Positions 453 to 22,520 of a DNA stretch of 22,853 nucleotides are shown here, piece by piece. The stretch is from Spirochaetaceae bacterium. Lineage in GTDB: Bacteria; Spirochaetota; Spirochaetia; Treponematales; Breznakiellaceae. The notes under the pieces are model-generated. The model was not told the origin of the DNA and ran no database searches. It saw only the letters and a program-made list of their open reading frames with translations. The translations under genes and the position numbers were made by a program. The stretch lies in contig JAIRMO010000187.1 in assembly GCA_031258625.1 (NCBI GenBank), positions 1-22,853 of the forward strand, written 5' to 3'. Each line of letters begins with the position of its first letter. Position 1 is the stretch's first letter.

Positions 453-720
453 GCCGCTTTTTCCGTTCTAGGGCCGCCGCAAACCCTTCTTCCACGAACC
501 GTTTGCGGAGATTTCCTATTGGCCGTATATTTGACCCATAGGCTGCGGCTATTTTCCCATCGGTCCATGGTTCATTGGCCGGTATCTCATCAAGGCCCAG
601 GAGTATCTGGGCATGGCGTATCCGGTAGCCGGCAGTATGTCCTTTTTGTATCAGCTTTTTTAAACGCTCCCGCTCTTCCTCCGTTAGGGGTACCCGGTAT
701 TTGATATTCGGTTTCAGCAT
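453..720 (-). pseudogene. IS630-family transposase, N-terminal fragment
   Basis: Read from 720 downward, about 89 residues match the N-terminal helix-turn-helix region of IS630-family transposases: LTEEERERLKKL, then RIRHAQILLGLDE, then WTDGKIAAAYG and LRKRFVEEGFAAALERK. In intact members this is followed by a linker and the DDE catalytic domain. Here the frame runs at about position 453 into the right end of the IS3 element, adding 17 unrelated residues before a stop. The catalytic domain is therefore missing and the gene is dead. A possible start ATG lies at 718-720, with a purine-rich AGGAGGGGAAT just upstream on the minus strand, so the promoter-proximal part may still be translated. Confidence 0.8.
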
Positions 721-789
721 ATTCCCCTCCTCTTATACATATCGGAGAGAAATTCTTGTCATATGAGTATGTTTAGGCTTCGGAGAGTA

Positions 790-1731
790 CTAGGCGGTCT
801 TCCACTTAATAGTTTTTTCTTCAATAAAGGATAAGAGACTATTCAGGATAGTTATAACTACCCCGACCAGGATAATACCCGCTATGGTATGCGTGTAATC
901 GGCGTAATCGGAATATTTTTTTATAAAAAATCCCAACCCCGACTGGGCGCCGATCATTTCCGCCATCATCAGAATCATAAACATGGTGGACAACTGGACC
1001 CGCAAGCTGCGGACAATACCGGGTATCAAATAAGGAAGGATCACCTTTAAAAGCATGGTGGGGGTATTTACCGCCATAACCTTTGCCGAATCGATAATCC
1101 GGCGATCTATGGCGCCCACGTTGTTGATCATCCCCATAAAGGTCGGCCAGAACAAGCCCAAGGCGACAACCGCTACGGAGGCGCTGGAAAAGGTAGGCAT
1201 AATCGCTACCAAGTAGGGGGTGTAAATCATCGCGGGGATAGGGCTTATAACCTTGGCAATGGGGAAAAAGTCATTCCGCAGCCGGGTATTCCATCCCACA
1301 AAGAGGCCCAACAAATTACCCGATACCAAGGCGATGCCTATACCCAAAAACAAGAGCCAGAGGGAACTGAAAATTCCCCGGATCATCAGGTTGTAATCGG
1401 TGATAAAAATATAAAAAACATCCTCCGGCGCGGGGTACAGGACCTGCATCAGGACATTAAAGGTTTTTGTCGCCAGTTCCCAAAGGATAAGGAAAACAAA
1501 AACACCGATACTGATATCCTGAATCTGTTTTTTCCCCGGATACCGTATGGACTGGTAGAGATAATAGATCCATATAAGGGTACTTACCAGAAAAAAAACA
1601 AAGGGGCTTTCGACCTCCCGTTTACCCGGAGTGAACATCAGGATTAATAGAAAGACATAAAACGAGGTGGTAAGCATTAACCGGCCGAAACGTCTCAGAA
1701 GGGTGTCGTTTTTGTTCGCAACCAGGGTCAT
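790..1731 (-). CDS. ABC importer permease, SsuC/TauC/NrtB type
   Basis: This 313-residue integral membrane protein is the permease of a sulfonate/taurine/nitrate-type ABC importer. Hydrophobic stretches at about 19-35, 44-61 and 74-92 precede the usual core of the binding-protein-dependent transport domain (about 115-305). The cytoplasmic coupling (EAA) loop is visible as AKVMAVNTPTMLLKVILPYLIPGI, split here as AKVMAVNTPTML then LKVILPYLIP. The two extra N-terminal helices make it longer than the usual six-helix SsuC. Its ATG overlaps the stop of the ATPase gene by four bases (ATGA), so the two are translationally coupled. It is the last gene of the nitrogenase-like operon and should form the membrane channel for that system's substrate. 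Substrate identity is an inference. Confidence 0.88.
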   Translation of the reverse strand: MTLVANKNDTLLRRFGRLMLTTSFYVFLLILMFTPGKREVESPFVFFLVSTLIWIYYLYQSIRYPGKKQIQDISIGVFVFLILWELATKTFNVLMQVLYPAPEDVFYIFITDYNLMIRGIFSSLWLLFLGIGIALVSGNLLGLFVGWNTRLRNDFFPIAKVISPIPAMIYTPYLVAIMPTFSSASVAVVALGLFWPTFMGMINNVGAIDRRIIDSAKVMAVNTPTMLLKVILPYLIPGIVRSLRVQLSTMFMILMMAEMIGAQSGLGFFIKKYSDYADYTHTIAGIILVGVVITILNSLLSFIEEKTIKWKTA

Positions 1732-2525
1732 AATACCACTTCCTCACCGATGCGGTTTCCCACATCCTGCAAAAACAAACTCATCAACCGGTTCCGAATT
1801 TCCATGTATTTCGGAGAAACCATGATTTCTTCTCTGGTTAAATCCACGGGAAATCCAATGGAAATTTCCTCTTTTATCCTTTTGGGCTCCATAAAAACGA
1901 TCCGGTCTGCCAGGATGATCGCCTCATCAATATCATGGGTAACAAAAACTACCGCTTTCCGATTATCCCCATTTTTGCAGAGTTTGACCGTTAACGCCTG
2001 GAGAGCCAGCCGGTTTTTCGGATCAATGGCGCCGAAGGGCTCGTCCAAAAGGAGAATCTCCGTATCCATCGCCAGGGTCCGGGCAATAGCCACCCGTTGC
2101 TGCATACCACCGGATAACTGATAGGGGTATTTATCAACGTACTCTTCCAAGTTAACCCGCTTAAGATATTCCAGGGCCCGTTCCTCAATTTGTTTTTTAT
2201 TCTGAAAAAGATTGGCCTGCTTTATGCCAAAATACACGTTTTTTTTGGCGGTGAGCCAGGGAAAAAGTGAATAATGCTGAAACACCATACCCCGATCCGT
2301 TCCCGTCCCTCGAACGGCCGCTCCATCAATCCGTACCTCCCCTTCGGTTGGAAAGTTGAGACCGGCCAAAAGGGATATGAGGGTGCTTTTTCCGCAGCCC
2401 GAAGGTCCGATGATACAGACAAATTCACCTTCTTCAATTTTGAGATTTACCTTCTCCAAAGCTACAAATGATTTACCGGCATCCCGAAACTCCAAAGACA
2501 CATTGTTTAGTTCAACCTTACTCAA
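1728..2525 (-). CDS. ABC importer ATPase, SsuB/TauB/NrtD type
   Basis: This 265-residue ATP-binding subunit shows every motif of the class: Walker A GPSGCGKST at about residues 40-48, Q-loop FQHYSLFPW at about 82-90, signature LSGGMQQR at about 137-144, Walker B ILLLDEP at about 157-163, and the switch His in VTHD at about 197. It most resembles SsuB/TauB/NrtD proteins, which energise uptake of sulfonates, taurine or nitrate. I chose the TTG at 2,525 because GGGG sits eight bases upstream on the minus strand and no later start keeps the first beta strand. It follows the binding protein after a 137-base gap that carries a strong hairpin, and it overlaps the permease gene by four bases. Confidence 0.92.
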   Translation of the reverse strand: MSKVELNNVSLEFRDAGKSFVALEKVNLKIEEGEFVCIIGPSGCGKSTLISLLAGLNFPTEGEVRIDGAAVRGTGTDRGMVFQHYSLFPWLTAKKNVYFGIKQANLFQNKKQIEERALEYLKRVNLEEYVDKYPYQLSGGMQQRVAIARTLAMDTEILLLDEPFGAIDPKNRLALQALTVKLCKNGDNRKAVVFVTHDIDEAIILADRIVFMEPKRIKEEISIGFPVDLTREEIMVSPKYMEIRNRLMSLFLQDVGNRIGEEVVL

Positions 2526-2577
2526 CCTAAAATCCCCTTTTCCCGCCTTAGGACTGCGAAACTATGGTATTTTAACG

Positions 2578-2610
2578 GAGTTGTTCAGAAACACAGGTTC
2601 CGAACAACTC
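2578..2610 (-). promoter_or_regulatory. intercistronic hairpin between binding-protein and ATPase genes
   Basis: Arms at 2,578-2,590 and 2,598-2,610 form a 13-base-pair stem with a seven-base loop. The single mismatch is a G-U wobble when read as minus-strand RNA, the transcribed strand. No U-run follows, so it is unlikely to be a full terminator. Its place just after the binding-protein gene is where importer operons often carry a processing or mRNA-stabilising hairpin that keeps the binding protein more abundant than the membrane parts. That role is an inference. Confidence 0.55.
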
Positions 2611-2662
2611 TATTTTCTTACCAGTGGTTACCGGTACTGCTTTCTAAATCCGATGATTCCGG

Positions 2663-3757
2663 TCATATCTTTTCCGATTCTTCAAAAAAGGTCTTAAGTT
2701 GCAAATAGACCGGATCATCAGGGTACCGCTCCAGAATTTTATTTATAGCCTCAGAAAAAATATCAGAGTTTATGTGATCATCCAGATTAATATCCGAATC
2801 TTTTACAATCCCATCCTGCCGCAGGTATTCATTAAAACGGTGTAAGTTAGCCCTTGCCGGCGCCGGGTTGTATTTTGATGCGGTGGAACTGTAAATCCCG
2901 GACTCAATATAGCTTACGCTTTGTCCCGATGCTTCCTTTACGATATTGACGGTGGTATCACGATCGGTATAGATCACTTTATAGGCACGGATCAAAGCCT
3001 GAAGATACGCTACCAGGAGTTCCCGTTTTTCTTTGATTACCTCATCGGTTGTACTCTGACGGCAGCATGGATACCCGGGATCCAGATCCGCCACATTAAG
3101 GACAACCTCAAGCCCCATGTCTTTTGCGATACTGACCCCATCGGCGGTAATATAGGCCACATCTACGGCGCCCTTGATGACCCCCTGGACAATTACATTA
3201 TCGGACCCCAGATCCACAAAGGTATAATCCCTGTCGAGGAAAATTCCCAGCTTTCGGAGGCGATCTCGAATTACATAATCTCCGGTATAACCCCTCGTAC
3301 TTCCATATTTTTTCCCCCGAAAATTCTCCAGGTTTTTGAATTCTTCGACCCGTTCGGGAAGGGCCACAATAACCCCACCCTCCATGGCGGAACCGCCAAA
3401 AATAACCAAATCCGTTTTTTCGGAAATAAACTGTAAGGGAGGGGTAACACCGTAGGCCACCACATCAACCTTACCCAGCTTTAATGCGGTAAATCCATCG
3501 TTGGTATTCTGCAACACCACGGGTTCGATTGCAACCCCTTCTTCCTCAAAGTATCCAAGCTGATAGGCTATGTTGTTTTGCGTTTGTTTCATACCGGTGG
3601 GAATCCATGCCACCTTTAATGCGCCTAAGTTTTTTTGTCCTTCAGTATTAGCCGTAGCGGCATCAGCGGCGGCCTCTTTCTTGGCGCAACCGGTAATAAG
3701 AAGCCCAAGGGCTAAAACAATCATTGCTGACGGCAACCTGATTTTTTTTCTTTTCAT
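2663..3757 (-). CDS. lipoprotein substrate-binding protein, SsuA/TauA/NMT1 family
   Basis: This 364-residue protein begins with a lipoprotein signal: basic MKRKKIR, a hydrophobic stretch, and lipobox LITGC with the lipidated Cys at 24. The mature part has the type II periplasmic-binding-protein fold of the SsuA/TauA/NMT1 family: VAWIPTGMKQTQNNIAYQLG, then YFEEEGV, then TPPLQF, then GVIVALP, then the hinge region KYGSTRGYTGDYV. It should deliver the substrate to the neighbouring permease. The mature protein carries an unusual vicinal Cys pair in GYPCCRQ at about 231-232. The ATG at 3,757 has AAGGAG six bases upstream. The gene follows the NifD-like gene by 46 bases, which ties this importer to the reductase. 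The ligand cannot be read from sequence; an organosulfur compound is the inference from context. Confidence 0.9.
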   Translation of the reverse strand: MKRKKIRLPSAMIVLALGLLITGCAKKEAAADAATANTEGQKNLGALKVAWIPTGMKQTQNNIAYQLGYFEEEGVAIEPVVLQNTNDGFTALKLGKVDVVAYGVTPPLQFISEKTDLVIFGGSAMEGGVIVALPERVEEFKNLENFRGKKYGSTRGYTGDYVIRDRLRKLGIFLDRDYTFVDLGSDNVIVQGVIKGAVDVAYITADGVSIAKDMGLEVVLNVADLDPGYPCCRQSTTDEVIKEKRELLVAYLQALIRAYKVIYTDRDTTVNIVKEASGQSVSYIESGIYSSTASKYNPAPARANLHRFNEYLRQDGIVKDSDINLDDHINSDIFSEAINKILERYPDDPVYLQLKTFFEESEKI

Positions 3758-3803
3758 ACGTAACTCCTTTTTAAACAGAATGTCCGGAACAGTCCGCTAA
3801 AAT

Positions 3804-5381
3804 TTAAACGGCCGCTACCGGTTCTTCCGGTTCTTTGACGATCCCCTTATCAATGATGTAATGATAGGGGCTTTTTTCATACCAACTCTCCTTATAGGGC
3901 AGCTTAATATTGCGGCTCAAATTTTTAGCATAATTGGTATTTAACAACGTCCGGTCGATCCGCCGGGCAAGATCATACGCCCCCCGGTAGCCAAAAAAAG
4001 CAAAACGCTGGGCAAATAGGGTAATGGAGGGAATACCGAGTTTGTTGATCCAAATCCCTACACCCGGATGGGATATGGCCATATCGGGTTTAAGTTTTTT
4101 AACCTGATTCACCAGCTCCGACGGCTGATTAGAGATGCTGTTGGAAATATCACCGATGGTTTCGCCTATTTCCTCAAAAAGTTTATTCCCAAAGGAATCA
4201 AAGTTGAAATGCCGGAACCCCACGACCTCCATGCCTATTTCATTTGCCAGAAGACCGGTGGTACCTATCCTGAGGTAGCCCCCGGAGATAAGTACCTTTT
4301 TGCCTTTAACCCTTTCCCGAATCGGCGCCAAGGCGGCTTTTAGTTTTTCCTCCTCCTTTACCAGGATCTTATCCGCCTCCTTTTCAAGGCCAAAAAACTG
4401 TGCAATTTCCATAACAAATTTCCTGGTAGCGCTGCTTCCGATGGGGATGCTGGGAGTAATATAGGGCATATTGAATTTCTGTTTTAGAAATTCAATAAAA
4501 TAGAGATCGTGGACATGACAAAAACTTACATTCAGCGCCGCTTCGGTTATCTTGCGCCACTCATCAGGATCCTTAAATTCCACAAAGATCTGAACGTTTA
4601 ACCCTATCGCCTCCAACAACCGCCGGATCTCCGCCTCGTCCTGGGGACCGATGGACCAGGCGTTATACAAATTAACGGTCCTGCTTTTTTTGTATTCATA
4701 CTGTTGGACTTTAAGATCATAGTCCCGATCATCCTTATTAAAGGGATAATAGTCCACATAGGGTCTAAGTTTAAAATCAAATTTGTGCAGGATCCCGTGG
4801 TATACCACATCGTAGGCCCCGGAAAACACCTTTGCCTTAAATCCCGGACAATGGAGCGGAACCAGTGTCGCGGAGACCTCACTTTGTGTACGGTTTACCA
4901 CCTCGTCGATATCATCCCCAATAATAGAAGGGGTACAGGTCATCAGGATAAAAATAGCGGTAGGCCGGAACTGCCGATCCGCATCCAGGATGGTCTGTTT
5001 AAGTTTTTCCTCACCGCCGCCTATCACTTCAGCTTCAGTTAAGTTGGTGGTTAGCCACCGCGCCCCGGCCATTTTAACCCCCCGGGCGGCGCCGTACATC
5101 CTTACGCTGAAATCAATAATATGGCTGCTGGACCCGCACCCCGCAGGCCCGTGCATAATAACCACCGAATCCTTTACCGAAAAAGAGATGAGGGTGGATA
5201 CCATCATTTGACAACCCGTACCCTGGGTGAAGGTTCTGTCACAATTAATAAGACAACCCTTTTGGGCACAGTTTGTCATATCCTTGGTACAGCCGCCATA
5301 CGCAAATCCGGTACGGCGGGAAACTTCCCTGGTCTGGGGCTCCCTTGAATCAAAATTAACATTGAGTATGGGTTTATTCAT
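3804..5381 (-). CDS. NifD-like subunit of a nitrogenase-like reductase (group IV/MarD-like)
   Basis: This 525-residue protein belongs to the NifD/NifE/BchN/MarD superfamily. The P-cluster-type cysteines are present at C57 (GTGCQMM), C82 (HGPAGCG) and C149 (MTCTPSIIGDDI). C288 in SFCHVHD aligns by eye with the Cys that holds the cofactor in NifD. The region corresponding to NifD His442 reads LFAQRFAFFGYRG with no His, and the His195 region reads FKAKVFSGAYDV, also without it. A four-Cys segment at residues 31-47 (GGCTKDMTNC, then AQKGCLINC) precedes C57 and is unusual. It is therefore probably not a dinitrogen-fixing enzyme; a reductase for another substrate is likely. AGGGAGG lies seven bases before its ATG. 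A 58-base gap separates it from the NifK-like gene. Confidence 0.85.
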   Translation of the reverse strand: MNKPILNVNFDSREPQTREVSRRTGFAYGGCTKDMTNCAQKGCLINCDRTFTQGTGCQMMVSTLISFSVKDSVVIMHGPAGCGSSSHIIDFSVRMYGAARGVKMAGARWLTTNLTEAEVIGGGEEKLKQTILDADRQFRPTAIFILMTCTPSIIGDDIDEVVNRTQSEVSATLVPLHCPGFKAKVFSGAYDVVYHGILHKFDFKLRPYVDYYPFNKDDRDYDLKVQQYEYKKSRTVNLYNAWSIGPQDEAEIRRLLEAIGLNVQIFVEFKDPDEWRKITEAALNVSFCHVHDLYFIEFLKQKFNMPYITPSIPIGSSATRKFVMEIAQFFGLEKEADKILVKEEEKLKAALAPIRERVKGKKVLISGGYLRIGTTGLLANEIGMEVVGFRHFNFDSFGNKLFEEIGETIGDISNSISNQPSELVNQVKKLKPDMAISHPGVGIWINKLGIPSITLFAQRFAFFGYRGAYDLARRIDRTLLNTNYAKNLSRNIKLPYKESWYEKSPYHYIIDKGIVKEPEEPVAAV

Positions 5382-5408
5382 TCCCTTACCTCCCTTACAA
5401 GACTTATA

Positions 5409-5425
5409 AAACCATCACATGGTTT
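5409..5425 (-). repeat. small hairpin between NifK-like and NifD-like genes
   Basis: A perfect seven-base inverted repeat, AAACCAT with ATGGTTT and a three-base loop, sits between the NifK-like stop and the NifD-like ribosome-binding site. It could be a minor mRNA-processing or stability hairpin. It is short and may be incidental. Confidence 0.35.
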
Positions 5426-5439
5426 CCGTGTTTTTTATT

Positions 5440-6771
5440 TTATCTCCCGGTAATTTGAGCGCTGATGAGATCTTCCAGGAGGCTCAGTCCCCCCTTAAAG
5501 CCGGCATATCCCTTGGACAGGATGATCCGGTTGATGACCGGAAAACTTACCGACAAAAACGGGCCGTTAAGGGTATCCGCCAGTTTCCTGTCTATGGTAC
5601 TGCCTAAAACAAAGGCCGGGGCAAAGGTTTCGTAATAGGGATCAGATTTAAACTGAGGATTGTTTTGTTCGATATATTGCTGGATCCTATAGGTATCGGT
5701 CTCAAAAATAAGTTCCGGTCTTTTAGAAAATTCTATCTGCTCAAAGGCGTCTTTGATAACCTGCTTTTGTTCCTCCGTAAGATCGTCGGTAACAAATATA
5801 TACCCCGGAATCCAGCCGATCTCATTATCCAGATATTTTGCGTAAGGTAACGCTTCGGTGGCATTGGCTATCACCACCACGTAATTCTGAAAATCAAAAT
5901 CAGCGATAAGGTTGGTTACCCGGTCTATATATTTATAGAAAATTTCCGTTTCCTGGCGTAAGACCCGGTCTACTTTGGCGTTATCTATCCCTAAGATTTC
6001 CGCAACCTGCCGGACAAATTTAACGGTAGCCCGGTTCCCAATAGGCAGATCCGTTACCAGGGAATCAATTCCATGGCTGTCCGTGGCTATCCGGGCCGCT
6101 TCAACACCGTATAACCGGGAAAATACGATGTTAAGTACGGCTTCACCGGCGCTGAGGATGTTTTTTTGCGTTTGGTCATTCGTAAAAAAGGTGTTGGCTT
6201 CCACATCGATCAAACTCAAAATCCTTCGGATCTCTTCAAGATCCCCCCGGAAGTAGGGATCATAGGCGGGAACCAATCCTAAGAGGTTGACCAGATTTTT
6301 TCGTTTGGTTTCTGACTTTGGAATATATTGATGAAAAAGTTCCTCCATCATTTTTGAATATCCGTAGTAGGAATTACCCTTAAACCCCCCGGAATCAATA
6401 AAAAGAAGCGGTTTTTCCCGTTCTTCAATTTCGTTTAACACCCCCTTTACATCGTCGCCGATAATGTCGGTCATGCAAGTGGTGGTAAGTACAAAAAGAT
6501 CTCCTTCCATTATTTCGAAGGTGTTTTTTATTTCTTCCTTTAGTTTAGCGGAACCGCCGAAGATGATCTCCGGTTCCCCCACGTTGGAACTCGGGGCCGC
6601 ATCGCCGCAATACCCGCCGCCGAAATAACCGCCTAATGACATTGCCCCGGCCAAAGTACCGGCGCAGCCCTGGGCGCCGTGTATAATGGGAATGGTTTTG
6701 GGTAAAGCGCTCAGGGTAGCCAAAACACCCCCCAACATACAGGAAAATCTGGGCCTCTCCACATGTGCCAT
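5440..6771 (-). CDS. NifK-like subunit of a nitrogenase-like reductase (group IV/MarK-like)
   Basis: This 443-residue protein belongs to the NifK/NifN/BchB/MarK superfamily. Cysteines at C11 (RPRFSCMLGG), C36 (HGAQGCAG) and C99 (TTTCMTDIIGDDV) match the three P-cluster ligands of NifK; C55 (GGGYCGD) and the Ser in FIDSGGFKGNS correspond to other conserved positions near that cluster. With the NifD-like protein it should form the alpha2-beta2 catalytic component. I took the ATG at 6,771 because AAGGAG lies seven bases upstream and the protein then starts as family members do. The frame stays open to 6,918, but that extension lies inside cysK and has no family match. It is shorter than true NifK and lacks its long N-terminal extension. 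Confidence 0.86.
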   Translation of the reverse strand: MAHVERPRFSCMLGGVLATLSALPKTIPIIHGAQGCAGTLAGAMSLGGYFGGGYCGDAAPSSNVGEPEIIFGGSAKLKEEIKNTFEIMEGDLFVLTTTCMTDIIGDDVKGVLNEIEEREKPLLFIDSGGFKGNSYYGYSKMMEELFHQYIPKSETKRKNLVNLLGLVPAYDPYFRGDLEEIRRILSLIDVEANTFFTNDQTQKNILSAGEAVLNIVFSRLYGVEAARIATDSHGIDSLVTDLPIGNRATVKFVRQVAEILGIDNAKVDRVLRQETEIFYKYIDRVTNLIADFDFQNYVVVIANATEALPYAKYLDNEIGWIPGYIFVTDDLTEEQKQVIKDAFEQIEFSKRPELIFETDTYRIQQYIEQNNPQFKSDPYYETFAPAFVLGSTIDRKLADTLNGPFLSVSFPVINRIILSKGYAGFKGGLSLLEDLISAQITGR

Positions 6772-6799
6772 ATATACACTCCTTATGGTTCGTCTGAAA

Positions 6800-7741
6800 T
6801 CAGACCGTATCCCCTGAAAACAGGGGCGTTGATAAATACCTTTCACCCGTATCGGGGAGCAGTACCACCACCGTCTTCCCCTCGTTTTCCAAGCGTTTGG
6901 CAATATGGGTCGCGGCAAAAAGGGCCGCCCCCGATGAGATCCCCACCAGCAGCCCTTCCTTCCGGGCTACCTCCTGGGAGGCCTCAAAAGCCTCATTGTT
7001 TTTAACCCGGAATATTTCATCCACCGTATTCCGGTTAAATACATTGGGTACAAAACCGGCTCCAATGCCCTGAATCGGGTGGGGGCTTGGCGCTTCACCG
7101 GAAAGAACCGAAGAATCATAGGGTTCAACAGCGACAATTTTAATAGCCGGATTGGCCTGTTTTAAAATCTCCCCCACACCGGTAATGGTTCCCCCGGTTC
7201 CGACCCCGGCCACAAACACGTCGACCTTGCCGTCGGTATCCTCCAGGATCTCCGTGGCGGTGGTTTCCCGGTGTATCGCCGGATTGGCGGGATTGTCAAA
7301 CTGCTGGGGGATAAAAGAATTATCAATTTGCGCGTTGAGTTCCTCCGCCTTCCTGATGGCCCCTTTCATGCCCAGGGCCCCCGGGGTTAATACCAACTCC
7401 GCCCCCAATGCCCGCAGGAGCCGTCTTCGTTCTATACTCATGGTTTCCGGCATGGTAAGAACAATTTTGTACCCCCTGGCCGCCGCTACAAAGGCAAGGC
7501 CGATACCGGTATTACCACTGGTGGGTTCAATAATAGTGGTATCCTTATTGATGAGCCCCCGTTGTTCCCCATCGGTGATCATGGCAAAGGCAATCCGGTC
7601 CTTGACGCTGCCCAAGGGGTTAAAATATTCTAATTTGGCGATAAGTTCTCCCGCTAATTTTTTATCTTCCCCGTATTTATTGAGCCGTAACAGCGGCGTC
7701 TTCCCAATCAAATCCGTCAGACTATCTGCAATTTTAGCCAC
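6800..7741 (-). CDS. cysK: cysteine synthase (O-acetylserine sulfhydrylase)
   Basis: This 313-residue PLP enzyme makes cysteine from O-acetylserine and sulfide. The PLP lysine is K47 in NPLGSVKDR, the substrate loop is TSGNTG at about 74-79, and the phosphate-binding loop is GTGGTITG. The protein ends in a normal CysK tail ([10 protein letters not shown]). The start is GTG at 7,741, supported by AGGAGG about eight bases upstream. It sits between the NifH-like and NifK-like genes with gaps of 27 and 28 bases, so it is co-transcribed with them. This placement suggests that the reductase reaction releases sulfide, or a thiol, which is fixed at once as cysteine. Use of another thiol in place of sulfide cannot be excluded. 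Confidence 0.95.
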
Positions 7742-7768
7742 CTAAGCACCCTCCTGATTTTATTTCCC

Positions 7769-8644
7769 TTAAATTGCCGCGCCTTGGGAAGTAACCTTGC
7801 CCTGTTCAACCTCAAGTAAATAATCCCCCCACCTGCCGGCCCATTCCCGCAATTCCGTAACTTCCATGGGCGTGGGGGTTTTGGATACCGAATGTTCCAC
7901 GATTTTTGCCGCCAGGGATCGGTATATCCCCGCCTGAACGGAACGCGGCGCCGCTTCGATGGTGGTTTTCCCCTGGAGTTCACTTTGAGTTACGGTAATG
8001 GACCGGGGAATATACTCCATTACCTGGGTATGGGTTTTTGCCACAAAATCGTCGATGATCTCCTGGGAATAGGGGGTTCCCATGGAATTGGCGATTACCC
8101 CGCCCAAAAGGGCGCCCCCGGAATTGGAGTACTTACTTATCCCCTTAAAAAGGTTATTCGAGGCATAGATAGACATAAAGTCCGAAGAGGATACGGTAAA
8201 AACATGTTCCGCTATCCCCTCCCGGATAGGAACGGCAAACCCGCCGCATACCACATCCCCCAGAACGTCATAAATAACCACGTCCAGTTCCAGTTCTTCA
8301 AAGATATTCTGATGTTTGAAGAGTTCCACCGCGGTGATGATTCCCCGTCCCGCGCAGCCCACCCCGGGGGCGGGCCCTCCGGCTTCTACGCAATAAATAC
8401 CGTTAAACCCCGGAAAAATAACCTCATGGGCCTTGACCACGGTTTTTTCCCGGAGGGTGTCCAAAACCGTGGGGATGTATTTCCCTCCCCGCAGGGTGTT
8501 GGTGGAATCGCTTTTAGGATCACAACCGAACTGCATGACCTTCAACCCCAATTCGGATAAGGCCGCGCTCAAATTTGAGGTGGTCGTTGATTTTCCGATG
8601 CCACCCTTTCCATAAATCGCAATTTGTTTAATCGCTTTCGCCAA
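7769..8644 (-). CDS. NifH-like ATP-dependent reductase component (group IV)
   Basis: This protein of about 291 residues is a NifH/BchL/MarH-type P-loop ATPase that passes electrons from a [4Fe-4S] cluster to the NifDK-like partner. Walker A is [11 protein letters not shown]. The two bridging cluster cysteines are in [13 protein letters not shown] (C97) and [15 protein letters not shown] (C133). The Arg that is ADP-ribosylated in classical NifH is present as R100. I chose the TTG at 8,644: GGGGAG lies seven bases before it, whereas the TTG at 8,650 leaves only one base. It is the first gene of the operon, after a strong promoter. Sequence details such as a CAGRG cluster loop without nitrogenase-specific neighbours favour a group IV paralogue over a nitrogen-fixing NifH. 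Confidence 0.9.
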
Positions 8645-8687
8645 AACCAAGCTCCCCTTTTCCTTAAAATTTAGTCCGTCTCTCCAT

Positions 8688-8715
8688 TACCTATTTTTTT
8701 TATTATTCATAGGTA
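8688..8715 (-). promoter_or_regulatory. leader hairpin of the nitrogenase-like operon
   Basis: In the untranslated leader, TACCTAT at 8,709-8,715 (minus) can pair with ATAGGTA at 8,688-8,694, leaving an A-rich 14-base loop. The stem is only seven pairs and AT-rich. It could modulate mRNA stability or be incidental. Confidence 0.3.
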
Positions 8716-8731
8716 TTTAATAAGTTTTTAG

Positions 8732-8760
8732 ATTATATTAAGCGTAAAATATATTGTCAA
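8732..8760 (-). promoter_or_regulatory. sigma70-type promoter of the nitrogenase-like operon
   Basis: On the minus strand TTGACA (8,755-8,760) and TATAAT (8,732-8,737) are separated by exactly 17 bases, a consensus housekeeping promoter. The DNA upstream of it is very AT-rich and could act as an UP element. The expected start of transcription near 8,725 gives a leader of about 80 bases before the NifH-like gene. A promoter this strong implies control by a repressor or by an RNA mechanism if the operon is conditional. Confidence 0.8.
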
Positions 8761-8763
8761 TAT
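8751..8763. promoter_or_regulatory. candidate operator overlapping the -35 box
   Basis: A 13-base perfect palindrome, ATATTGACAATAT (odd centre), covers the -35 hexamer of the nitrogenase-like operon promoter. A site here would let a dimeric repressor block RNA polymerase. No regulator gene is present in the window, and a palindrome this short in AT-rich DNA can occur by chance. Confidence 0.35.
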
Positions 8764-8803
8764 GTTTTCCTAAAAATTCTATATTTTTAATATGAAATAT
8801 TTC

Positions 8804-8824
8804 CCAAAATACGGTTGATTTTGG
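8804..8824. repeat. short palindrome of the TTTTGGAA family
   Basis: CCAAAAT and ATTTTGG (8,804-8,810 and 8,818-8,824) flank a seven-base loop. It lies between the thiI terminator region and the operon promoter, next to the longer palindrome at 8,844-8,872, and shares its core with the palindromes near 12,702, 18,611 and 18,734. Confidence 0.4.
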
Positions 8825-8872
8825 AAAAGCCGCTATGATGAAGCGGTTTCAAAATCTCGTATTTTGAAACCG
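8825..8872 (-). terminator. likely terminator region after thiI
   Basis: Directly after the thiI stop, a perfect 12-base inverted repeat (8,844-8,855 with 8,861-8,872, five-base loop) is followed by a second small stem CCGCT/AGCGG (8,830-8,846) that runs into CTTTT on the minus strand. Together they could end thiI transcription and insulate it from the operon promoter. The two stems share bases, so they are mutually exclusive. The U-tract is short, which keeps confidence moderate. Confidence 0.5.
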
Positions 8873-8877
8873 TACCC

Positions 8878-10110
8878 TTAAATCATGCCGCCTTCGGCCT
8901 GCGTTCCGTTCCCCCGAGGCCCGTTCTGTTCCGGCCGTTCTTTTCCCGGGGGAAAGGAACATTTTTCCGTATGCCCCCCTCGGAGGGCCTCCGCCAGGGA
9001 TTCCTCCAGGTTAAGCCCCTGGTAGAGGCGGAGGGCTTCCTCCCGGTTCCCCCGGATGATGGGGTGGGGAGGGCTGAAAAGGAGGCAGCAGTCCTCATAG
9101 GGGAGGATTGAGGTTTTGTAGGTACCGATGGTCTCGGCGATCCGGATGATTTTTTCCTTATCCATGCCGATCAAGGGCCGCAACACCGGGATTTTTACCC
9201 GGCTTTCGGTACAGGCTATATTTTCTATAGTTTGGCTTGCCACCTGGGAAAGGCTTTCCCCGGTGATAAGGCACGCGCAACGCAGCTTTTCCGCCAGCTT
9301 TTCCGCGGCGTCCATCATAGCCATCCTGAGCAGGACCGTATGCCATTCCAAAGGAGCCCCCGCTTTTATGTGTTTCTGGATCGGGGTAAAATTCAAGGTG
9401 TGGAGCCGGACCCCCAGGGAATACCGGCCCACGGTTTCCGCCAATTTTACCACCTTGAGCCGGGCTTCTTCCGAGGTGTAGGGGTAGGCATGGAAATAAA
9501 CCGCCTCGATTACCATCCCCCGGGATGCCAAGAGGTACCCCGCCACCGGGGAATCGATACCCCCCGAGAGGAGGAGGAGGCCCCGGCCGGCGCTTCCCAC
9601 GGGAAGCCCCTGCCGTCCCCGCCGCCCGAAACCGTATACATAGGCCTTTTCCCGGATCTCAACTTCAATAATTCCCTGGGGCTGACGGACATCCACCCGG
9701 AGGCCCGGCACCGCCCCCAGCACCGCCTCGCCCCCCTCCCGGGCAATACCGTAGGAATCCAGGGGAAAACTTTTATCGGTCCGGCGGGCCTCTATTTTGA
9801 AGGTTCGGATCCCCCCTCCCAGCAGCCGCTTCCCTTCCTCAACACAGGAGCGGATCACCGCGGGGACGGTTTTTTCACACACCCGGGTCTGTGCCCATCC
9901 GCTAATCCCCATCAAATGGTCCAGGGCGTCTTCGGCCCGGCTTTCCGTATCCTCGGGACTGTGGAGGTAGAAGCGGCCGCTGGCGGTTTCCACCCGCGCC
10001 CCGGTTCCCCGGATCAGGGCCTCCAGGTTCCGCCGGAGGATCCGTTCAAAAACCCGGCGGTTCCCCCCCTTGAGGGTGAGTTCCCCCAATTTTAAAAGAT
10101 AGGTGATCAT
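8878..10110 (-). CDS. thiI: tRNA 4-thiouridine synthase ThiI, without rhodanese domain
   Basis: This 410-residue protein adenylates U8 of tRNA and inserts sulfur to give 4-thiouridine. An N-terminal ferredoxin-like and THUMP region (about 1-165) is followed by a PP-loop ATP-pyrophosphatase domain with the motif SGGIDSP at 182-188. The conserved Cys in PYEDCCLLFSPPHP (C341/C342) marks the active-site loop. It lacks the C-terminal rhodanese domain of the enterobacterial protein and ends in a Gly/Pro-rich tail. In Bacillus-type systems such a ThiI takes sulfur directly from a dedicated desulfurase, and one is encoded nine bases upstream. The start has only a weak AAAGG very close to the ATG; translation is probably coupled to the gene before it. 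Confidence 0.93.
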   Translation of the reverse strand: MITYLLKLGELTLKGGNRRVFERILRRNLEALIRGTGARVETASGRFYLHSPEDTESRAEDALDHLMGISGWAQTRVCEKTVPAVIRSCVEEGKRLLGGGIRTFKIEARRTDKSFPLDSYGIAREGGEAVLGAVPGLRVDVRQPQGIIEVEIREKAYVYGFGRRGRQGLPVGSAGRGLLLLSGGIDSPVAGYLLASRGMVIEAVYFHAYPYTSEEARLKVVKLAETVGRYSLGVRLHTLNFTPIQKHIKAGAPLEWHTVLLRMAMMDAAEKLAEKLRCACLITGESLSQVASQTIENIACTESRVKIPVLRPLIGMDKEKIIRIAETIGTYKTSILPYEDCCLLFSPPHPIIRGNREEALRLYQGLNLEESLAEALRGGHTEKCSFPPGKERPEQNGPRGNGTQAEGGMI

Positions 10111-10119
10111 CCCTTTATA

Positions 10120-11262
10120 CTACAGCGTTTTGAGCATTTCTCCTATGGCGTTGATCAGGGCCTCTACATCCTCGATACTGGTGGACCAGCCCTGGGATAT
10201 CCGAACACCTCCGAATGCGGTCTGTTCATCCACCCCCATGGCGGCGAGGATCGGCCGTTTCTCCGAGGCCGAGGAACAGGCGGAACCCGTGGAAACCGCA
10301 AACCCCACGTCATCCAGGACCCGGACCATCACCTCCCCGGGAATGTCCTCGAAAGCGGCCTGGAGGATATAGGGGGAAAACCGGGAATCCCCTTCCCCCC
10401 GGTCCCGGGGGATGAGGGAACACCGGCCCAGGTCCCGCAGGGCATGGATCAGGGTTTTCCACCGGCCGGAAGCGGCCTCGTATTCCCGCCGCAGGGTATC
10501 CGGGTCAAGCCGTTTTTCCAGGCAGTCCGCCAGGGCCAGGGCGCCGGCGGTATTTTCCGTTCCCGGCCGCTTACCCCCCTCCTGCCCCCCCCCGGAATAG
10601 AGGGGTTCCAGGTCTTTCCGGCAGTAGAGGAGGCCGATACCCCGGGGCCCCCCGAGTTTATGGGCGCTCAACGAGGCGGAATCCACATCCAGAGCCCTGA
10701 GGTCCAGGGGAATCTTCCCCATGGCCTGGACCATATCGCAATGGACATGGACGGGCGCCCCTTCCCGGTTCCGGATCCGGCCCATCAGTCCGGGGAGGTC
10801 CATGACGGCCCCGGTTTCGTTGTTGACCCCCATGATTGCCACCAACCGGGCTCCGGGATTTTTTTTCAGGGCCGCCTCAAGGGTCCGGTGGCTCACCCGG
10901 CCGTCCCCTTCCACAGCGATGGGGGAGACCCGCTTCCCCAGCCGTTCCAGGACCCGGCAATTCTCGCTTACCGAGGGATGTTCCACCGCGGAGGCCAGGA
11001 TATCCCCCGGGCTTCGGAACAGGGTAGAAAAGAGAACCAGGGCGTTCGATTCTGTTCCCCCGGAGGTAAAAAAGAGGTGTTTGGCCTGTACCCCCAGGGC
11101 CGCGGCGCACCGGTTCCGGGCGTCCTCCAGGGCGCCCCGGGCCTCCCGGCCCTCAAGATGCCGGGACGAGGGGTTCCCCCAGGGGAGATCCCCGGGCGCC
11201 GGGATATCCGGCGGCGCGGTGGCGGCCCAGTCAAAGTAACGGCGTTTAAAGGGGGTATTCAT
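10120..11262 (-). CDS. cysteine desulfurase, NifS/IscS family (NifZ-like partner of ThiI)
   Basis: This 380-residue class V PLP aminotransferase releases sulfur from cysteine as an enzyme persulfide. H95 (VEHPSV), D176 (HCDMVQ), the PLP lysine K202 (SAHKLGGPRG) and the catalytic Cys C329 (STGSACSSASEK) are present. The start MNTPFKRRYFDWAAT matches the family (normally YLDNAAT; here Asn is replaced by Trp). The gene precedes thiI by nine bases, so it is most likely the sulfur donor for 4-thiouridine; it may also serve iron-sulfur cluster assembly. No Shine-Dalgarno sequence is visible before the ATG at 11,262: the upstream bases are GATCCTTCCGT. Confidence 0.92.
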   Translation of the reverse strand: MNTPFKRRYFDWAATAPPDIPAPGDLPWGNPSSRHLEGREARGALEDARNRCAAALGVQAKHLFFTSGGTESNALVLFSTLFRSPGDILASAVEHPSVSENCRVLERLGKRVSPIAVEGDGRVSHRTLEAALKKNPGARLVAIMGVNNETGAVMDLPGLMGRIRNREGAPVHVHCDMVQAMGKIPLDLRALDVDSASLSAHKLGGPRGIGLLYCRKDLEPLYSGGGQEGGKRPGTENTAGALALADCLEKRLDPDTLRREYEAASGRWKTLIHALRDLGRCSLIPRDRGEGDSRFSPYILQAAFEDIPGEVMVRVLDDVGFAVSTGSACSSASEKRPILAAMGVDEQTAFGGVRISQGWSTSIEDVEALINAIGEMLKTL

Positions 11263-11354: not shown

Positions 11355-12659
11355 CTACCCCGCGGTCCCCTTGGATTTGGCGTCGGTAGTCGTTTCCGGC
11401 GGAGTTTTCCCGGCAGCTTTGGCGGCGCCGGCTTGTCCTTTCACGCCGCTTTTCCGCCCCCCCCCTTTTTCCATCATGGCCCGTACCACTATGGGGAGAC
11501 CGTAAAGCCGGATAAAGCCCTTGGCATCGGCGTGGTTGTAGAGTTCTCCGGTGGCAAAACTGGCGATACTGGCGTTATAGAGGGAATAGGGGGAAACGGC
11601 CCCCGCAGAGGATATGGAGCCCTTATAAAGTTTGAGCCGTACCGTACCGGTTACCGTCCGCTGGGTGGCGTCCACAAAGGCGGAAAGGCTCTCCCGAAGG
11701 GGGGTAAACCAGAGGCCTCCGTAGATCAGCTCCCCCATCTTGAGCGCGGCCTGTTGTTTAAAGGCATAGGTCTGCCGGTCAAGGCAGAGGTGTTCCAGTT
11801 CCTGGTGGGCATAGTAGAGGATGCTGCCCCCGGGGGTTTCATAGATCCCACGGCTTTTCATCCCCACCACCCGGTTCTCCACGAGGTCCACGATACCCAC
11901 CCCATGGGCGCCGCCGATTTTATTCAAGGTCTGAATCAACCTCACCCCGTCCAGCTTACGGCCGTTCACCCCAATGGGGATCCCCTTTTCAAACTCGATC
12001 TCCACGTATTCGGCCTTGTTGGGGGCCTTTTCCGGGGGCACCGATATTTCGAGCATATTCCCCAGGCGGGGTTCATTTGAGGGGTCCTCCAGTTCCAGGC
12101 CCTCGTGGGAAATATGCCAAAGGTTATCGTCCCGGCTGTAGGATTGTTTCTTTTTCATGGGCGCCGGGATCTTCCGTTTTTTCAGATATTCGATTTCTTC
12201 CTCCCGGCTTTTAATGTCCCAGGTCCGCCAGGGGGCGATGATCTCCAGATCCGGGGCAAAGGCCATGATCCCCAGGTCGAACCTGACCTGGTCGTTCCCC
12301 TTGCCGGTGGCCCCATGGGCGATAGCCACGGCTTTTTCCTTCCGGGCCTGTTCCACCAGGACCTTGGCAATGAGGGGCCGGGCGGTGGAGGTTCCCAGGA
12401 GGTACTTTTCTTCGTAGACGGCGTTGGCCTTGAGGGCGGGCCACACATAGTTCTCCACATAGGTTTGTTTGACATCAACCACCACACAAGAAACCGCCCC
12501 GGTATCCAGGGCCCGTTGGGTAACGGTTTGCCAGTCCGCCTCCTGTCCCACATCCACACAAACCGCCGCGATATCACAATCGTAGTTTTCCTTGAGCCAG
12601 GGGATGATCACCGTGGTATCCAACCCCCCCGAATAGGCGAGCACGACTTTCTTTTTCAT
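11355..12659 (-). CDS. argG: argininosuccinate synthase
   Basis: This 434-residue enzyme joins citrulline and aspartate using ATP to make argininosuccinate, the penultimate intermediate of arginine synthesis. The N-type ATP pyrophosphatase motif is [11 protein letters not shown] near residues 6-16, and the family signature [12 protein letters not shown] follows at about 115. I chose the ATG at 12,659: GGAG lies five bases upstream and the protein then starts [14 protein letters not shown] as expected. The frame stays open upstream to 12,716 without support. The last 30 or so residues are a low-complexity Lys/Ala/Gly/Thr tail beyond the usual end. It is a single-gene unit, separated from the argCJBD operon by the opposite-strand TraX-family gene. 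Confidence 0.96.
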
Positions 12660-12701
12660 AACAACTCCGGAATAGCGTACAAACGTAATTTTCTTATAAG
12701 C

Positions 12702-12732
12702 CTGTTCCGAAACCAACCGGATTTTGGAACAG
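12702..12732. repeat. palindrome in the argG upstream region
   Basis: CTGTTCCGAAA and TTTTGGAACAG (12,702-12,712 and 12,722-12,732) pair over 11 bases with one mismatch, which becomes a G-U wobble if transcribed in the plus direction. It lies between argG and the divergent TraX-family gene and shares the TTTTGGAAC core with other intergenic palindromes in this window. Confidence 0.5.
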
Positions 12733-12736
12733 ACCC

Positions 12737-12742
12737 ATTATA
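12737..12742 (-). promoter_or_regulatory. possible -10 box for argG
   Basis: A perfect TATAAT on the minus strand lies about 80 bases upstream of the argG start. No good -35 hexamer is placed 16-18 bases upstream (an A/T run is there), so this is only a candidate. Transcription would start inside or just before the palindrome at 12,702-12,732. Confidence 0.3.
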
Positions 12743-12837
12743 CTATAAAACAACAATATAAAAAAGGCCCCGGCAAAAATTCGCTAAAAATTTGGAATTT
12801 CTCCGGGGGATGAGTACCTTATAATTGAGGAGTGGTT

Positions 12838-13644
12838 ATGGTTGATGAGGAAATAGCGGTGGTGAAATTACACCATCAGTATCAGATTATGTCGGGGACC
12901 ACCCTTAAAGTTATCGGTATTATCCTGATGGTTATGGACCACCTGCACCAAATGTTTATCCTCCAGGGGGCGCCGAATTGGTTAAATTGGTTCGGCCGTC
13001 CGGTGGCCGTCATATTTATGTTTCTCTGCGCCGAGGGGTTTTATTATACCCGGAGCAAAAAACGGTATCTGGCCCAGCTTCTGATCGGGTTCTTGTTCAT
13101 GTCCCTTATGAACCGGATCCTTTCCTATTATTTACCCCTTGAAGCGGTTGCCCTAATAAACAACATATTCAGCGCCCTCCTCCTCGCGGCTTTTTATATG
13201 GGAATGGTTGACCTTATCCGGGAGGGTATCCGGGAGAAAAGGGCAAAAAAAATCCTCCTGGCCCTGGGGGGAATACTCATCCCCTGGGTTATCGGCATAG
13301 CCACACTCTTTGTCATCGCCAACGTAGAGCGGACCGGGGCGATGCTCCTGCTGTTTATCCCCAATCCCATCTTCGCGGAGGGCGGCTTTGTTATGGTCCT
13401 GATGGGACTGCTGTTTTATATCCTGCGGAAATACCGGCTGGCCCAGGCGGGGGTGATAGCGGTCATCGCGCTCATCTCGGGGCTCACCGCCGAGCCCGGG
13501 AATTTCCAATGGCTCATGGTTACCGCCATTATACCCATCCTCCTTTACAACGGTAACCGGGGCCGGGGGGGTAAATACTTCTTCTACATCTTTTACCCCG
13601 CCCATATATACCTGTTTTATATCATCGCCTGGTTTTTAAAATAA
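12838..13644 (+). CDS. TraX-family integral membrane protein
   Basis: This 268-residue polytopic membrane protein has about eight or nine hydrophobic segments. The N-terminal portion, GTTLKVIGIILMVMDHLHQM followed by WFGRPVAVIFMFLCAEGFYYT, is the hallmark of the TraX family (named for the F-plasmid pilin acetylase), which is common as a chromosomal protein of unknown role and probably acylates a surface molecule. I chose the ATG at 12,838 because GAGGAG lies five bases upstream; a GTG at 12,832 would overlap that site. A TATAAT at 12,820-12,825 is too close to be its -10 box. No conjugation genes are nearby, so a role in F-like transfer is unlikely. It points against argG and argD and is probably transcribed alone. 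Confidence 0.8.
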   Translation: MVDEEIAVVKLHHQYQIMSGTTLKVIGIILMVMDHLHQMFILQGAPNWLNWFGRPVAVIFMFLCAEGFYYTRSKKRYLAQLLIGFLFMSLMNRILSYYLPLEAVALINNIFSALLLAAFYMGMVDLIREGIREKRAKKILLALGGILIPWVIGIATLFVIANVERTGAMLLLFIPNPIFAEGGFVMVLMGLLFYILRKYRLAQAGVIAVIALISGLTAEPGNFQWLMVTAIIPILLYNGNRGRGGKYFFYIFYPAHIYLFYIIAWFLK

Positions 13645-13834
13645 AGAATTTTGGAAAGGGATTGTACCGGCGATGATTACACCCTTATAAAGAGGATGAA
13701 ACCTGGCCTTTTTACGGGACAAGGATATAAGCCTGGTAAACGGCGGCGAATACCTCATCGGCGCAAGTTTTCTTATGTGTATCCTCCGTTAAGTCAATGG
13801 GAGGAGGAATCCTAAAAAAGCGGCCTTCTAAATT
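13645..13834. other. intergenic stretch with a possible gene relic
   Basis: These 190 bases separate the converging TraX-family gene and argD. One plus-strand frame near 13,708-13,790 reads AFLRDKDISLVNGGEYLIGA and on to a stop, which looks like protein-coding sequence without a start; it may be a relic of a lost gene. A different frame (13,696-13,815) gives a 39-residue basic peptide that I do not call. No convincing terminator is seen; a T-run follows argD on the minus strand without a clear stem. Confidence 0.3.
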
Positions 13835-14998: not shown

Positions 14999-15008
14999 AG
15001 TTTTCTCC

Positions 15009-15881: not shown

Positions 15882-15914
15882 TTTATTTCCCCATCCTTAT
15901 TGTCCCGCCAATTC

Positions 15915-17177: not shown

Positions 17178-17225
17178 TACTCCCCTCCCCTTCCGTATTC
17201 GTTATCCATGCCGCGTCCTCCGGAT

Positions 17226-22340: not shown

Positions 22341-22458
22341 GCCTGGCAATGACCTACTTTCCCACCGCTTCGAGCGGCAGTATCATCGGCGTAAGAGGGC
22401 TTGACTTCCGTGTTCGGAATGGGAACGGGTATAACACCTCCACCATAATCACCAGGCA
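22341..22458 (-). rRNA. rrf: 5S ribosomal RNA
   Basis: On the minus strand the sequence starts TGCCTGGTGATTATGG and ends CATTGCCAGGC; the ends pair as the terminal helix. The universally conserved central part, CCCGTTCCCATTCCGAACAC, is present, and the length (about 118 bases) is normal. The 23S gene precedes it by about 60 bases with no tRNA between them. Ends are accurate to a base or two. Confidence 0.96.
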
Positions 22459-22520
22459 ATTAATTACCATACAAACCAGGGGATACGACGTATCAAAAGG
22501 GCAGCGCAACAAGAACGATA

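Follow-up and report, generated by a model that had tools for sequence, protein, structure and literature searches.

The 22,853-nucleotide stretch analysed here (the window) is contig C23 of a 2.1-Mb Spirochaetaceae assembly (G000) that comprises 242 contigs and is 72% complete. Its subject of interest is an operon on the minus strand (8650 to 790) in which the original prediction had placed seven genes: H, the Fe protein of a nitrogenase-like enzyme; cysK, for cysteine synthase; K and D, the two subunits of the nitrogenase-like component; and three genes of an ATP-binding cassette (ABC) importer, encoding a substrate-binding protein (SBP), an ATPase and a permease. All seven are present in just that order. 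They are tightly packed: the gaps are 27 bases (H-cysK), 28 (cysK-K), 58 (K-D), 46 (D-SBP) and 137 (SBP-ATPase), the ATPase and permease genes overlap by 4, and the largest of these values stays within the limit of about 140 that had been claimed. The features are as follows.

8732..8760, minus strand: promoter-like site, TTGACA-17-TATAAT, 12/12 match to the sigma-70 consensus, about 80 bases upstream of H (pattern match alone)
7769..8650, minus strand: NifH/MarH-like Fe protein (H), reductase component; Fer4_NifH, E 6.6e-98
6800..7741, minus strand: cysK, cysteine synthase A; TIGR01139, 454.5 bits, above the equivalog cut-off of 350.95
5440..6771, minus strand: NifK/MarK-like subunit (K), 443 amino acids; PF00148 (Oxidored_nitro); P-cluster Cys 11, 36 and 99
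3804..5381, minus strand: NifD/MarD-like catalytic subunit (D), 525 amino acids; PF00148 (Oxidored_nitro)
4518..4520, minus strand: codon of D Cys288, predicted ligand of an [Fe8S9C] cluster (MarD Cys270); Cys in 24/24 clade rows
4068..4070, minus strand: codon of D His438, predicted second cluster ligand (MarD His429); His in 24/24 clade rows
2663..3757, minus strand: lipoprotein SBP, NMT1/SsuA superfamily; PF09084, E 5.8e-15; fold model with a predicted local distance difference test score (pLDDT) of 87.6
3062..3067, minus strand: vicinal Cys231-Cys232 of the SBP, a Cys-Cys (CC) pair kept in linked SBPs
1728..2525, minus strand: ABC transporter ATPase; ABC_tran, E 3.9e-35
790..1731, minus strand: ABC transporter permease; BPD_transp_1, E 7.6e-18

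(A technical note: more likely than not, K begins at the ATG at 6771, where a ribosome-binding site can be made out by eye; the open reading frame (ORF) list has it begin at the TTG at 6918, and it would then overlap cysK.)

The enzyme and its predicted metal clusters

A PF00148 component-1 pair accompanied by a NifH-type Fe protein places the enzyme in the nitrogenase superfamily (group IV nitrogenase-like). Among solved structures, H, D and K all have MarHDK, the methylthio-alkane reductase (Mar) of Rhodospirillum rubrum (9fmg/9d9u), as their closest relative. Against sequences of the Protein Data Bank (PDB), H scores 487.5 bits with MarH (9fmg_D) and 270.9 with the next chain, a NifH; D scores 207.7 with MarD (9fmg_A) and 105.9 with the best nitrogenase chain; K scores 238.4 with MarK (9d9u_C) and 73.7 with the next chain. 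The AlphaFold model of D (pLDDT 85.2) likewise finds 9fmg_A as its top structural match (TM 0.79/0.88). D is 28% identical to R. rubrum MarD.

A careful maximum-likelihood tree was made from 59 of the 81 rows of a D alignment (L147_4, long and wrongly assigned, was excluded from both, and the long rows L183_10 and L049_7 are among those omitted from the tree). In it, 24 rows, the window D among them, group together (support 99/98); the 20 Mar and Mar-like rows do so separately (100/100), NifD and NifE stand apart (100/100), and four rows (L094, L097, L099, L185) make up a third lineage (100/99). The K tree (50 rows) agrees, with 97/96 for the window clade, 100/100 for NifK/N and weak support, 87/69, for Mar. 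Judged by these trees, D and K are a clade of their own, outside NifDK/NifEN and outside Mar. Because BchNB, CfbD, Vnf, Anf, Nfa and IsrD rows are absent from the trees, and H has no tree, placement of H, and placement relative to those families, is by profile and PDB scores and by the descriptions in papers. Curated cut-offs for NifD, VnfD and AnfD are far from being reached, and in the protochlorophyllide and chlorophyllide reductase (DPOR/COR) families K scores 89 with DPOR_BchB (cut-off 490.35), while D scores 89 with the same profile and 59.1 with bchN (cut-off 419.95). The original prediction was to fall if D and K turned out to lie inside the NifDK or BchNB clades: they lie outside Nif in the trees and far below the BchNB cut-offs in the profile searches. 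N2 fixation and the reduction of protochlorophyllide, chlorophyllide and F430 were dropped as candidate activities on account of profile scores far below cut-off, and membership in the isethionate reductases was dropped on the clade's cysteine pattern (all P-cluster Cys, Cys275 equivalent), set against the published pattern of IsrD.

Besides the window D and K, a PF00148 search of the 72% complete G000 assembly returned a single K-like fragment, on contig C55; no NifEN was found. The fragment (L089/L003), a second NifK-like sequence, lies at the contig edge and has one TAG stop within the matched stretch; after it come, by eye, a helix-turn-helix/cupin regulator-like ORF and an acyl-CoA synthetase-like ORF.

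What would such an enzyme hold? MarDK is described (PMC12552129, in the passages concerned) as having a P-cluster and an [Fe8S9C] cluster bound by MarD Cys270 and His429; His429 sits on a loop that nitrogenases do not use, and Arg428-His429 is put forward there as a possible hallmark of Mar. (The residue numbers of that paper agree with the PDB chain used here.) In the alignment, the three P-cluster Cys of D and the equivalents of both Cys270 and His429 are conserved without exception in the 24 clade D rows, as are the three P-cluster Cys of K in the 21 clade K rows. The Cys270 equivalent is found in every D group aligned; it is the His429 position that discriminates: His in 14/14 Mar rows and 17/21 Mar-like rows, Gly in 18/18 NifD/NifE rows, and a gap in 4/4 rows of the third lineage, which does keep the P-cluster Cys and the Cys270 equivalent. 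The column of NifD His442 holds, in the clade, Phe (22), Tyr (1) or Trp (1). (Length served to separate NifD from NifE rows; one of the ten rows labelled NifD has Asn at His442 and is probably a NifE.)

The surroundings of the cluster are another matter. At the position of MarD His194 the clade has Val, Ile, Tyr or Leu, and His in 0/24; MarD Trp195, Cys73 and Gln74 are found in 0/24 rows; the Phe199 position is Tyr in all 24; Arg428 has no counterpart in 24/24, the ligand loop being one residue shorter; and the His375 position is divided evenly between Asn (12/24) and His (12/24). Arg428 and Trp195 are each present in 34 of the 35 Mar and Mar-like rows. His194 is present in 14/14 Mar rows and 0/21 Mar-like rows, and is therefore no general mark of Mar. 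In short, the alignment suggests cofactor ligands kept and a pocket remodelled relative to MarD. That the enzymes of the clade hold a P-cluster and an [Fe8S9C] cluster is well supported by these residues; the same cofactor as in Mar, serving a different substrate, is likely.

The linkage to cysK

When 84,980 species genomes were scanned with the D alignment, 154 relatives emerged, the best 80 of which were kept as named loci; some are close kin, and counts of loci are accordingly not counts of independent events. The nearest are Spirochaetaceae/Treponema metagenome-assembled genomes (MAGs) with D 98% (L004) and 89% (L005 and L006) identical to the window D; from their isolate codes we take them to be of termite gut origin. 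A translated search for CysK, on the strand of D and no more than 6 kb from it, succeeds in 62/80 loci, and in 48/55 of those that have at least 3 kb of upstream sequence. By record title the 62 comprise 43 Bacillota, 8 Spirochaetota, 7 Synergistota, 2 Planctomycetota, 1 Thermodesulfobacteriota and 1 Fusobacteriota; most are MAGs, possibly mis-binned. ORF calls, available for 77 loci (L014, L025 and L059 have no called D ORF), put cysK directly upstream of K in 51 and an ABC part within four genes in 48; the full order of the window, H-cysK-K-D-SBP-ATPase-permease, recurs in 2 (L007, L022). The original prediction would have been abandoned had the order been unique and cysK found beside no other such genes; cysK-K-D in fact recurs in many genomes. 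One sample of 296 Spirochaetota genomes gave a clear member in G000 only, so that in this phylum as a whole the module is rare.

Is cysK simply a companion of nitrogenase-type genes? As a control, 28 nif loci of Bacillota were taken from 43 genomes matching at E <= 1e-60 (stretches of 8 to 20 kb; NifD over its curated cut-off in 26/28). None carries CysK (0/28), and cysK is therefore not a general partner of nitrogenase-type clusters. Among 13 stretches with a Mar-like or related D, CysK is present in 6 and a MetY-like gene in 6; MetY-like or PatB-like genes, named by eye, stand near such enzymes in some loci. In L027, L028 and L081 (group B) a LysR-type regulator gene (by eye) replaces cysK before K-D-SBP-ATPase-permease.

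The history of the linkage is partly recorded in CysK itself. In a carefully built CysK tree, with 54 rows from the operons and 26 from elsewhere (L191 excluded; L023 and L059 counted as operonic), the operonic label requires 4 changes, as compared with 22.2 when shuffled. Set A (96/83) gathers 16 rows whose loci belong to D group A, in which D shares at least 60% identity with the window D, together with one other row from a group A locus, and set C (100/98) consists of 33 rows whose loci belong to D group C; of the outliers, the C rows L037 and L042 adjoin set A, and the C rows L068 and L074 stand apart with L091. When A and C rows alone are counted (53 in all), the label for D group changes once and that for phylum ten times: cysK thus travels with K-D, not with the host phylum. 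From this tree, cysK was probably joined to K-D more than once; the other possibility is its loss from other lineages.

The importer, cofactor supply and surroundings

The description of the importer as of the sulfonate type, as first proposed, holds at the level of the superfamily and fails at the level of the family: the SBP scores 56 bits against an SsuA-family cut-off of 163.5. With taurine families the ATPase scores 204 (cut-off 357) and the permease 65.5 (cut-off 342), and no sulfonate or taurine family is over its cut-off among the families listed for the permease or among the best 25 of 188 for the ATPase. Comparing the SBP fold model by Foldseek and VIA-align 2 does not help: bicarbonate, nitrate, sulfonate, taurine and pyrimidine-type binders score alike, and for this reason the ligand class cannot be derived from structure.

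The CC pair is more distinctive. Carriers use at least three kinds of SBP near D, and 44 of the 50 loci with a recognised SBP near D have one of the types in which the pair is invariant. It is present in 49/49 SBPs of the window type and a second type, a figure that partly reflects common descent because both types were chosen by their likeness to each other, and in 0/6 SBPs of a third type; among general NMT1 proteins it occurs in 0/30 top-scoring and 2/20 middle-scoring sequences. SaoB-family matches number 0 among 14 SBPs scanned, and SaoX matches weakly in 4/14. Four CC-type SBPs have no nitrogenase-like gene in view nearby, and two of these adjoin cysK. The pair is also seen in importers near Mar-like paralogues (L175, L177, L179, L180); 3 of 7 SBP matches there are without it. 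Another stretch, L262, combines a CC-type SBP with cysK, two MetY-like ORFs and two MtaA/CmuA-family methyltransferase-like ORFs, with no nitrogenase-like genes in 18 kb.

The window has no nifB, nifE or nifN, as the original prediction correctly stated; its further description of a "self-contained" route goes too far, because NifB is presumably required and the nifB-type gene of this genome lies on a different contig, G000:C153. This gene, of the radical S-adenosylmethionine (SAM) type, occupies 7183-9496 of L088 with a NifX-like gene and the second cysK, which are on the opposite strand; no K or D is found in the 15 kb around it. Its product scores 262.8 with TIGR01290 (cut-off 343.65), the radical SAM part alone being matched (model 3-278 of 441). 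The sample of carrier genomes numbers 23: 22 chosen among genomes of the 80 named loci, and G000. NifB-type matches are found in all 23 (the best per genome at E <= about 2e-71); 8/23 pass the curated cut-off, and many lack the NifX part. In 30/77 loci a NifB-type gene is no more than five genes away from D, and in 9 more there is a NifX-like gene or a short piece alone. A paralogous cluster of G002 (L091, G002:C97) has everything on one strand, cysK-nifX-permease-ATPase-SBP-cysK-nifB-K-D, with an importer of the CC type.

As for sulfur, PF01077 (sulfite/nitrite reductase) is absent from 15/23 carriers: the incomplete G000 is one, and six others are non-MAG records (R. albus AR67 and 8, B. hungatei DSM 14810, AC2028, P6A3 and C. 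polysaccharolyticum). A Sat-type ATP sulfurylase is found in 0/23 carriers; this search did not extend to the CysND/CysH route from sulfate, and E. coli, which uses CysND, goes unmatched too. CysE-like matches occur in 22/23 carriers, 11 of them over cut-off; G000 has two, both below.

The original prediction of one promoter for the operon fits: the only 12/12 sigma-70 match within 500-9000 is the putative promoter at 8760-8732, a pattern match, in a background of 17 matches scoring at least 9 in the 8.5 kb (13.1 expected). Control by a riboswitch or other RNA was dropped: Rfam at gathering thresholds found no regulatory RNA near any operon start in the window and 22 loci, its matches elsewhere being a thiamine pyrophosphate riboswitch (L016, 1488-1609) and an L10 leader (L081, 2831-2963). 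Upstream of the operon, on the same strand (8878-11262), are thiI and a NifS/IscS-like cysteine desulfurase gene, and the inverted repeat GGTTTCAAAAT...ATTTTGAAACC (by eye) lies between thiI and the operon. Farther on there is an arginine biosynthesis run, argG, argD, argB, argJ and argC (11355-18332; named from translations alone), and at 22341-22853, on the minus strand, the 5S rRNA gene and the end of the 23S rRNA gene (Rfam). At the operon's downstream end lie a truncated IS3-type transposase ORF (6-422, by eye) and a small helix-turn-helix transposase-like ORF (400-720, by eye), which has no match in Pfam/NCBIfam.

A possible route to cysteine, its rivals and its known counterparts

How might these genes work together? 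We lean, slightly, toward an operon for scavenging sulfur, in which an imported organosulfur compound would be reductively desulfurised to sulfide and the sulfide captured by CysK. The steps would be these: 1) the lipoprotein-dependent ABC importer would take up a polar sulfur compound; 2) the Fe protein H would feed electrons, at the expense of ATP, to a DK heterotetramer with P-clusters; 3) within DK, D Cys288 and His438 would hold an [Fe8S9C] cluster, presumably made by the NifB of this genome with no part played by NifEN, molybdenum or homocitrate; 4) DK would reductively cleave the carbon-sulfur bond; and 5) CysK would join the freed sulfide with O-acetylserine to make cysteine. These steps draw on different sources. 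By homology we infer the clusters, the electron flow driven by the Fe protein and the cleavage of a C-S bond in this clade. The case for sulfide as the product draws on the company that the genes keep and on pathways missing from the genomes: where no sulfite reductase exists, a product taken up by CysK ought to be sulfide, and the 15/23 carriers without PF01077 fit sulfide rather than sulfite as the product there. The substrate would be an organosulfur compound. Scavenging of sulfur is further favoured by MarHDK as the closest solved enzyme, by the invariant ligand residues, by the NifB-type matches in every carrier sampled, by a cysK that accompanies K-D and is missing from nif loci, by the MetY-like or PatB-like genes of some loci, by the 0/23 carriers with a Sat-type ATP sulfurylase, by the CysE-like matches, and by the two CC-type SBPs that adjoin cysK away from any nitrogenase-like gene in view. 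Gene content, gene order and its recurrence, the distinct nitrogenase-like clade, its conserved ligand residues and the presence of NifB-type and cysE-like genes in the genome are firm; the module is real, recurring and apparently mobile; its function in sulfur metabolism is plausible.

Several considerations weigh against sulfur scavenging. The literature surveyed holds no activity, expression or ligand datum for any member of the clade. Seven loci (L027, L028, L029, L081, L072, L073, L078) are without cysK despite at least 3 kb of upstream sequence. CysK is a common protein, of which G000 has a second copy, and one common lineage of operonic CysK is rejected by the approximately unbiased (AU) test (p-AU 4e-5). 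The SBP resembles nitrate or bicarbonate binders at least as well as sulfonate binders, and a third type of SBP near D in six loci (L005, L013, L030, L062, L063, L073) is without the CC pair, which consequently had to be rejected as the mark of every D-linked importer. PF01077 proteins are present in 8/23 carriers, C. fimetarium included, and the product could be sulfite there. If the organism obtains sulfide in some other way and CysK serves that, the argument for sulfide as the product fails.

One can enlarge the proposal to a third kind of sulfur-freeing nitrogenase-like reductase, operating with an [Fe8S9C] cluster free of molybdenum and homocitrate on an imported polar compound, and yielding sulfide. 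It would be accompanied by a cysK that travels with it and by importers mostly of the Cys-Cys kind, would move as a unit among anaerobes of several phyla, and would provide a route to cysteine for bacteria seemingly without sulfite reduction. This larger version is more speculative, and our judgment of it tips somewhat to the negative side.

What else might the module do? The strongest contender, in our view unlikely, has the enzyme free sulfite from an imported sulfonate, as is proposed for IsrBHDK, with a separate sulfite reductase making the sulfide and CysK a common end step. The importer is of the SsuA superfamily, IsrBHDK and SsuCAB are described as required for anaerobic use of isethionate in R. 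capsulatus, with Isr also reported in spirochaetes (PMC11423573), and PF01077 proteins do exist in the 8 carriers already mentioned; the 15 without them, six non-MAG records included, speak the other way, and so does IsrD, published with one of the three P-cluster Cys and no Cys275 (same source), all of which the clade rows have. No more probable is a variant of Mar that frees methanethiol or another thiol, from which CysK or MetY would make S-alkylcysteine or methionine. In its favour, no known function is nearer than that of Mar, MetY-like genes occur in several Mar-like loci, and MetY-like or PatB-like genes occur in a few loci of the clade itself. CysK nevertheless dominates over MetY (cysK is directly upstream of K in 51/77 loci, a MetY-like gene near D in 2/77), the MarD residues His194, Trp195, Phe199 and Arg428 are absent from 24/24 clade rows, and volatile thioethers should, on general grounds, make an ABC importer unnecessary.

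Two further proposals have a distinctly low probability, the same for each. In one, cysK and the importer serve the assembly of the metalloclusters, by providing cysteine, sulfur or metal, and the reductase has a substrate that has nothing to do with sulfur. Assembling a P-cluster and an [Fe8S9C] cluster takes a great deal of sulfur, the second cysK of G000 has NifB-type and NifX-like genes nearby, and metal transport coupled to cofactor assembly has been suggested for other ABC-bearing loci (Dos Santos 2012, PMC3464626, in the passage concerned); yet true nif clusters need the P-cluster and the same precursor and have cysK in 0/28 loci, and two CC-type importers adjoin cysK with no nitrogenase-like gene in view. 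In the other, the imported compound carries a soft element other than sulfur (selenium, or a thiol-bound metal or metalloid) that is freed reductively. The Cys-Cys pair of the SBP resembles the CUxxT motif of SaoB, a binding protein that is a selenoprotein, for which metal or unknown ligands have been suggested (2026 review, PMC13188914, in the part concerned); set against this are the 0/14 SBPs in the SaoB family, the weak SaoX matches in 4/14, and the adjoining cysK, which points to sulfur. A divergent N2-fixing enzyme is very improbable: H barely exceeds the NifH cut-off (396.6 vs 394.35 bits), no nifE or nifN was found in the incomplete G000 genome, the His442 column is Phe, Tyr or Trp in all 24 clade rows, and D and K lie outside the Nif clade.

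If sulfur scavenging is the right explanation, one of biology's most elaborate metal clusters has a new use: a second sulfur job for nitrogenase-type clusters, besides Mar, in anaerobes many of which have no visible sulfite reductase, and a function to name for an unassigned part of group IV. There would be named strains to test: R. albus, B. hungatei and C. polysaccharolyticum, without PF01077, and C. fimetarium, with it. It is argued in PMC12552129, in the passages concerned, that reductases with such clusters predate N2 fixation; a second enzyme type of this sort in sulfur metabolism would bear on what the ancestors of that time did.

The linkage of nitrogenase-like genes to cysK is itself already published. 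Dos Santos 2012 (PMC3464626) notes that NifD-like proteins with the Cys275 equivalent are commonly encoded near an O-acetylhomoserine sulfhydrylase or a cysteine synthase and may serve sulfur metabolism; its examples are R. rubrum, C. beijerinckii and Geobacter FRC-32, and the passage does not say which neighbor belongs to which. A 2026 account of large termite-gut spirochaetes (PMC13067680) places group-IV nifK and nifD of Pillotina corrugata in an operon with cysteine synthase. Set beside the window by description, these loci keep the same gene company and are possibly of the same clade; they differ in that the passages concerned contain no analysis of cluster ligands, importer or clade. A preprint (PMC10418091) links MarHDK-like genes, in the part concerned, to methyltransferase clusters that also carry sulfur amino acid genes. 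In the literature surveyed, which is main texts without supplements and without the 2020 Science paper on Mar, the passages concerned give no account of the cluster ligands conserved in the clade, of how its pocket differs or of the Cys-Cys importer.

Set beside the better-known systems, the window clade shares with NifHDK/NifEN the fold, the P-cluster Cys and the Cys275 equivalent; it differs from them at clade His438, where NifD/E rows have Gly (18/18), in the cysK that nif loci lack (0/28), and in that no NifEN was found in the incomplete G000 assembly. With IsrBHDK of Rhodobacter capsulatus, described by Morimoto 2024 (PMC11423573), it has in common a nitrogenase-like HDK, a radical SAM partner, an importer of the SsuABC type and a setting in sulfur assimilation. 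The differences, IsrD being compared by its description there, are one P-cluster Cys and no Cys275 in IsrD against all P-cluster Cys and the cluster ligands in the window clade, and an IsrB that shares the radical SAM motif alone with NifB against a NifB-type protein in the window genome. To MarBHDK of R. rubrum the clade is closest, in its P-cluster Cys, its Cys270/His429 ligands, its NifB-type partner and its sulfur setting; it is separated from Mar by its position in the trees, by a D that is 28% identical, by the absence of His194, Trp195, Phe199 and Arg428, by CysK in place of MetY as the usual neighbor, and by importers mostly of the CC type. With Mar's cluster ligands, different pocket residues and probably a different substrate, the two make a natural contrast set.

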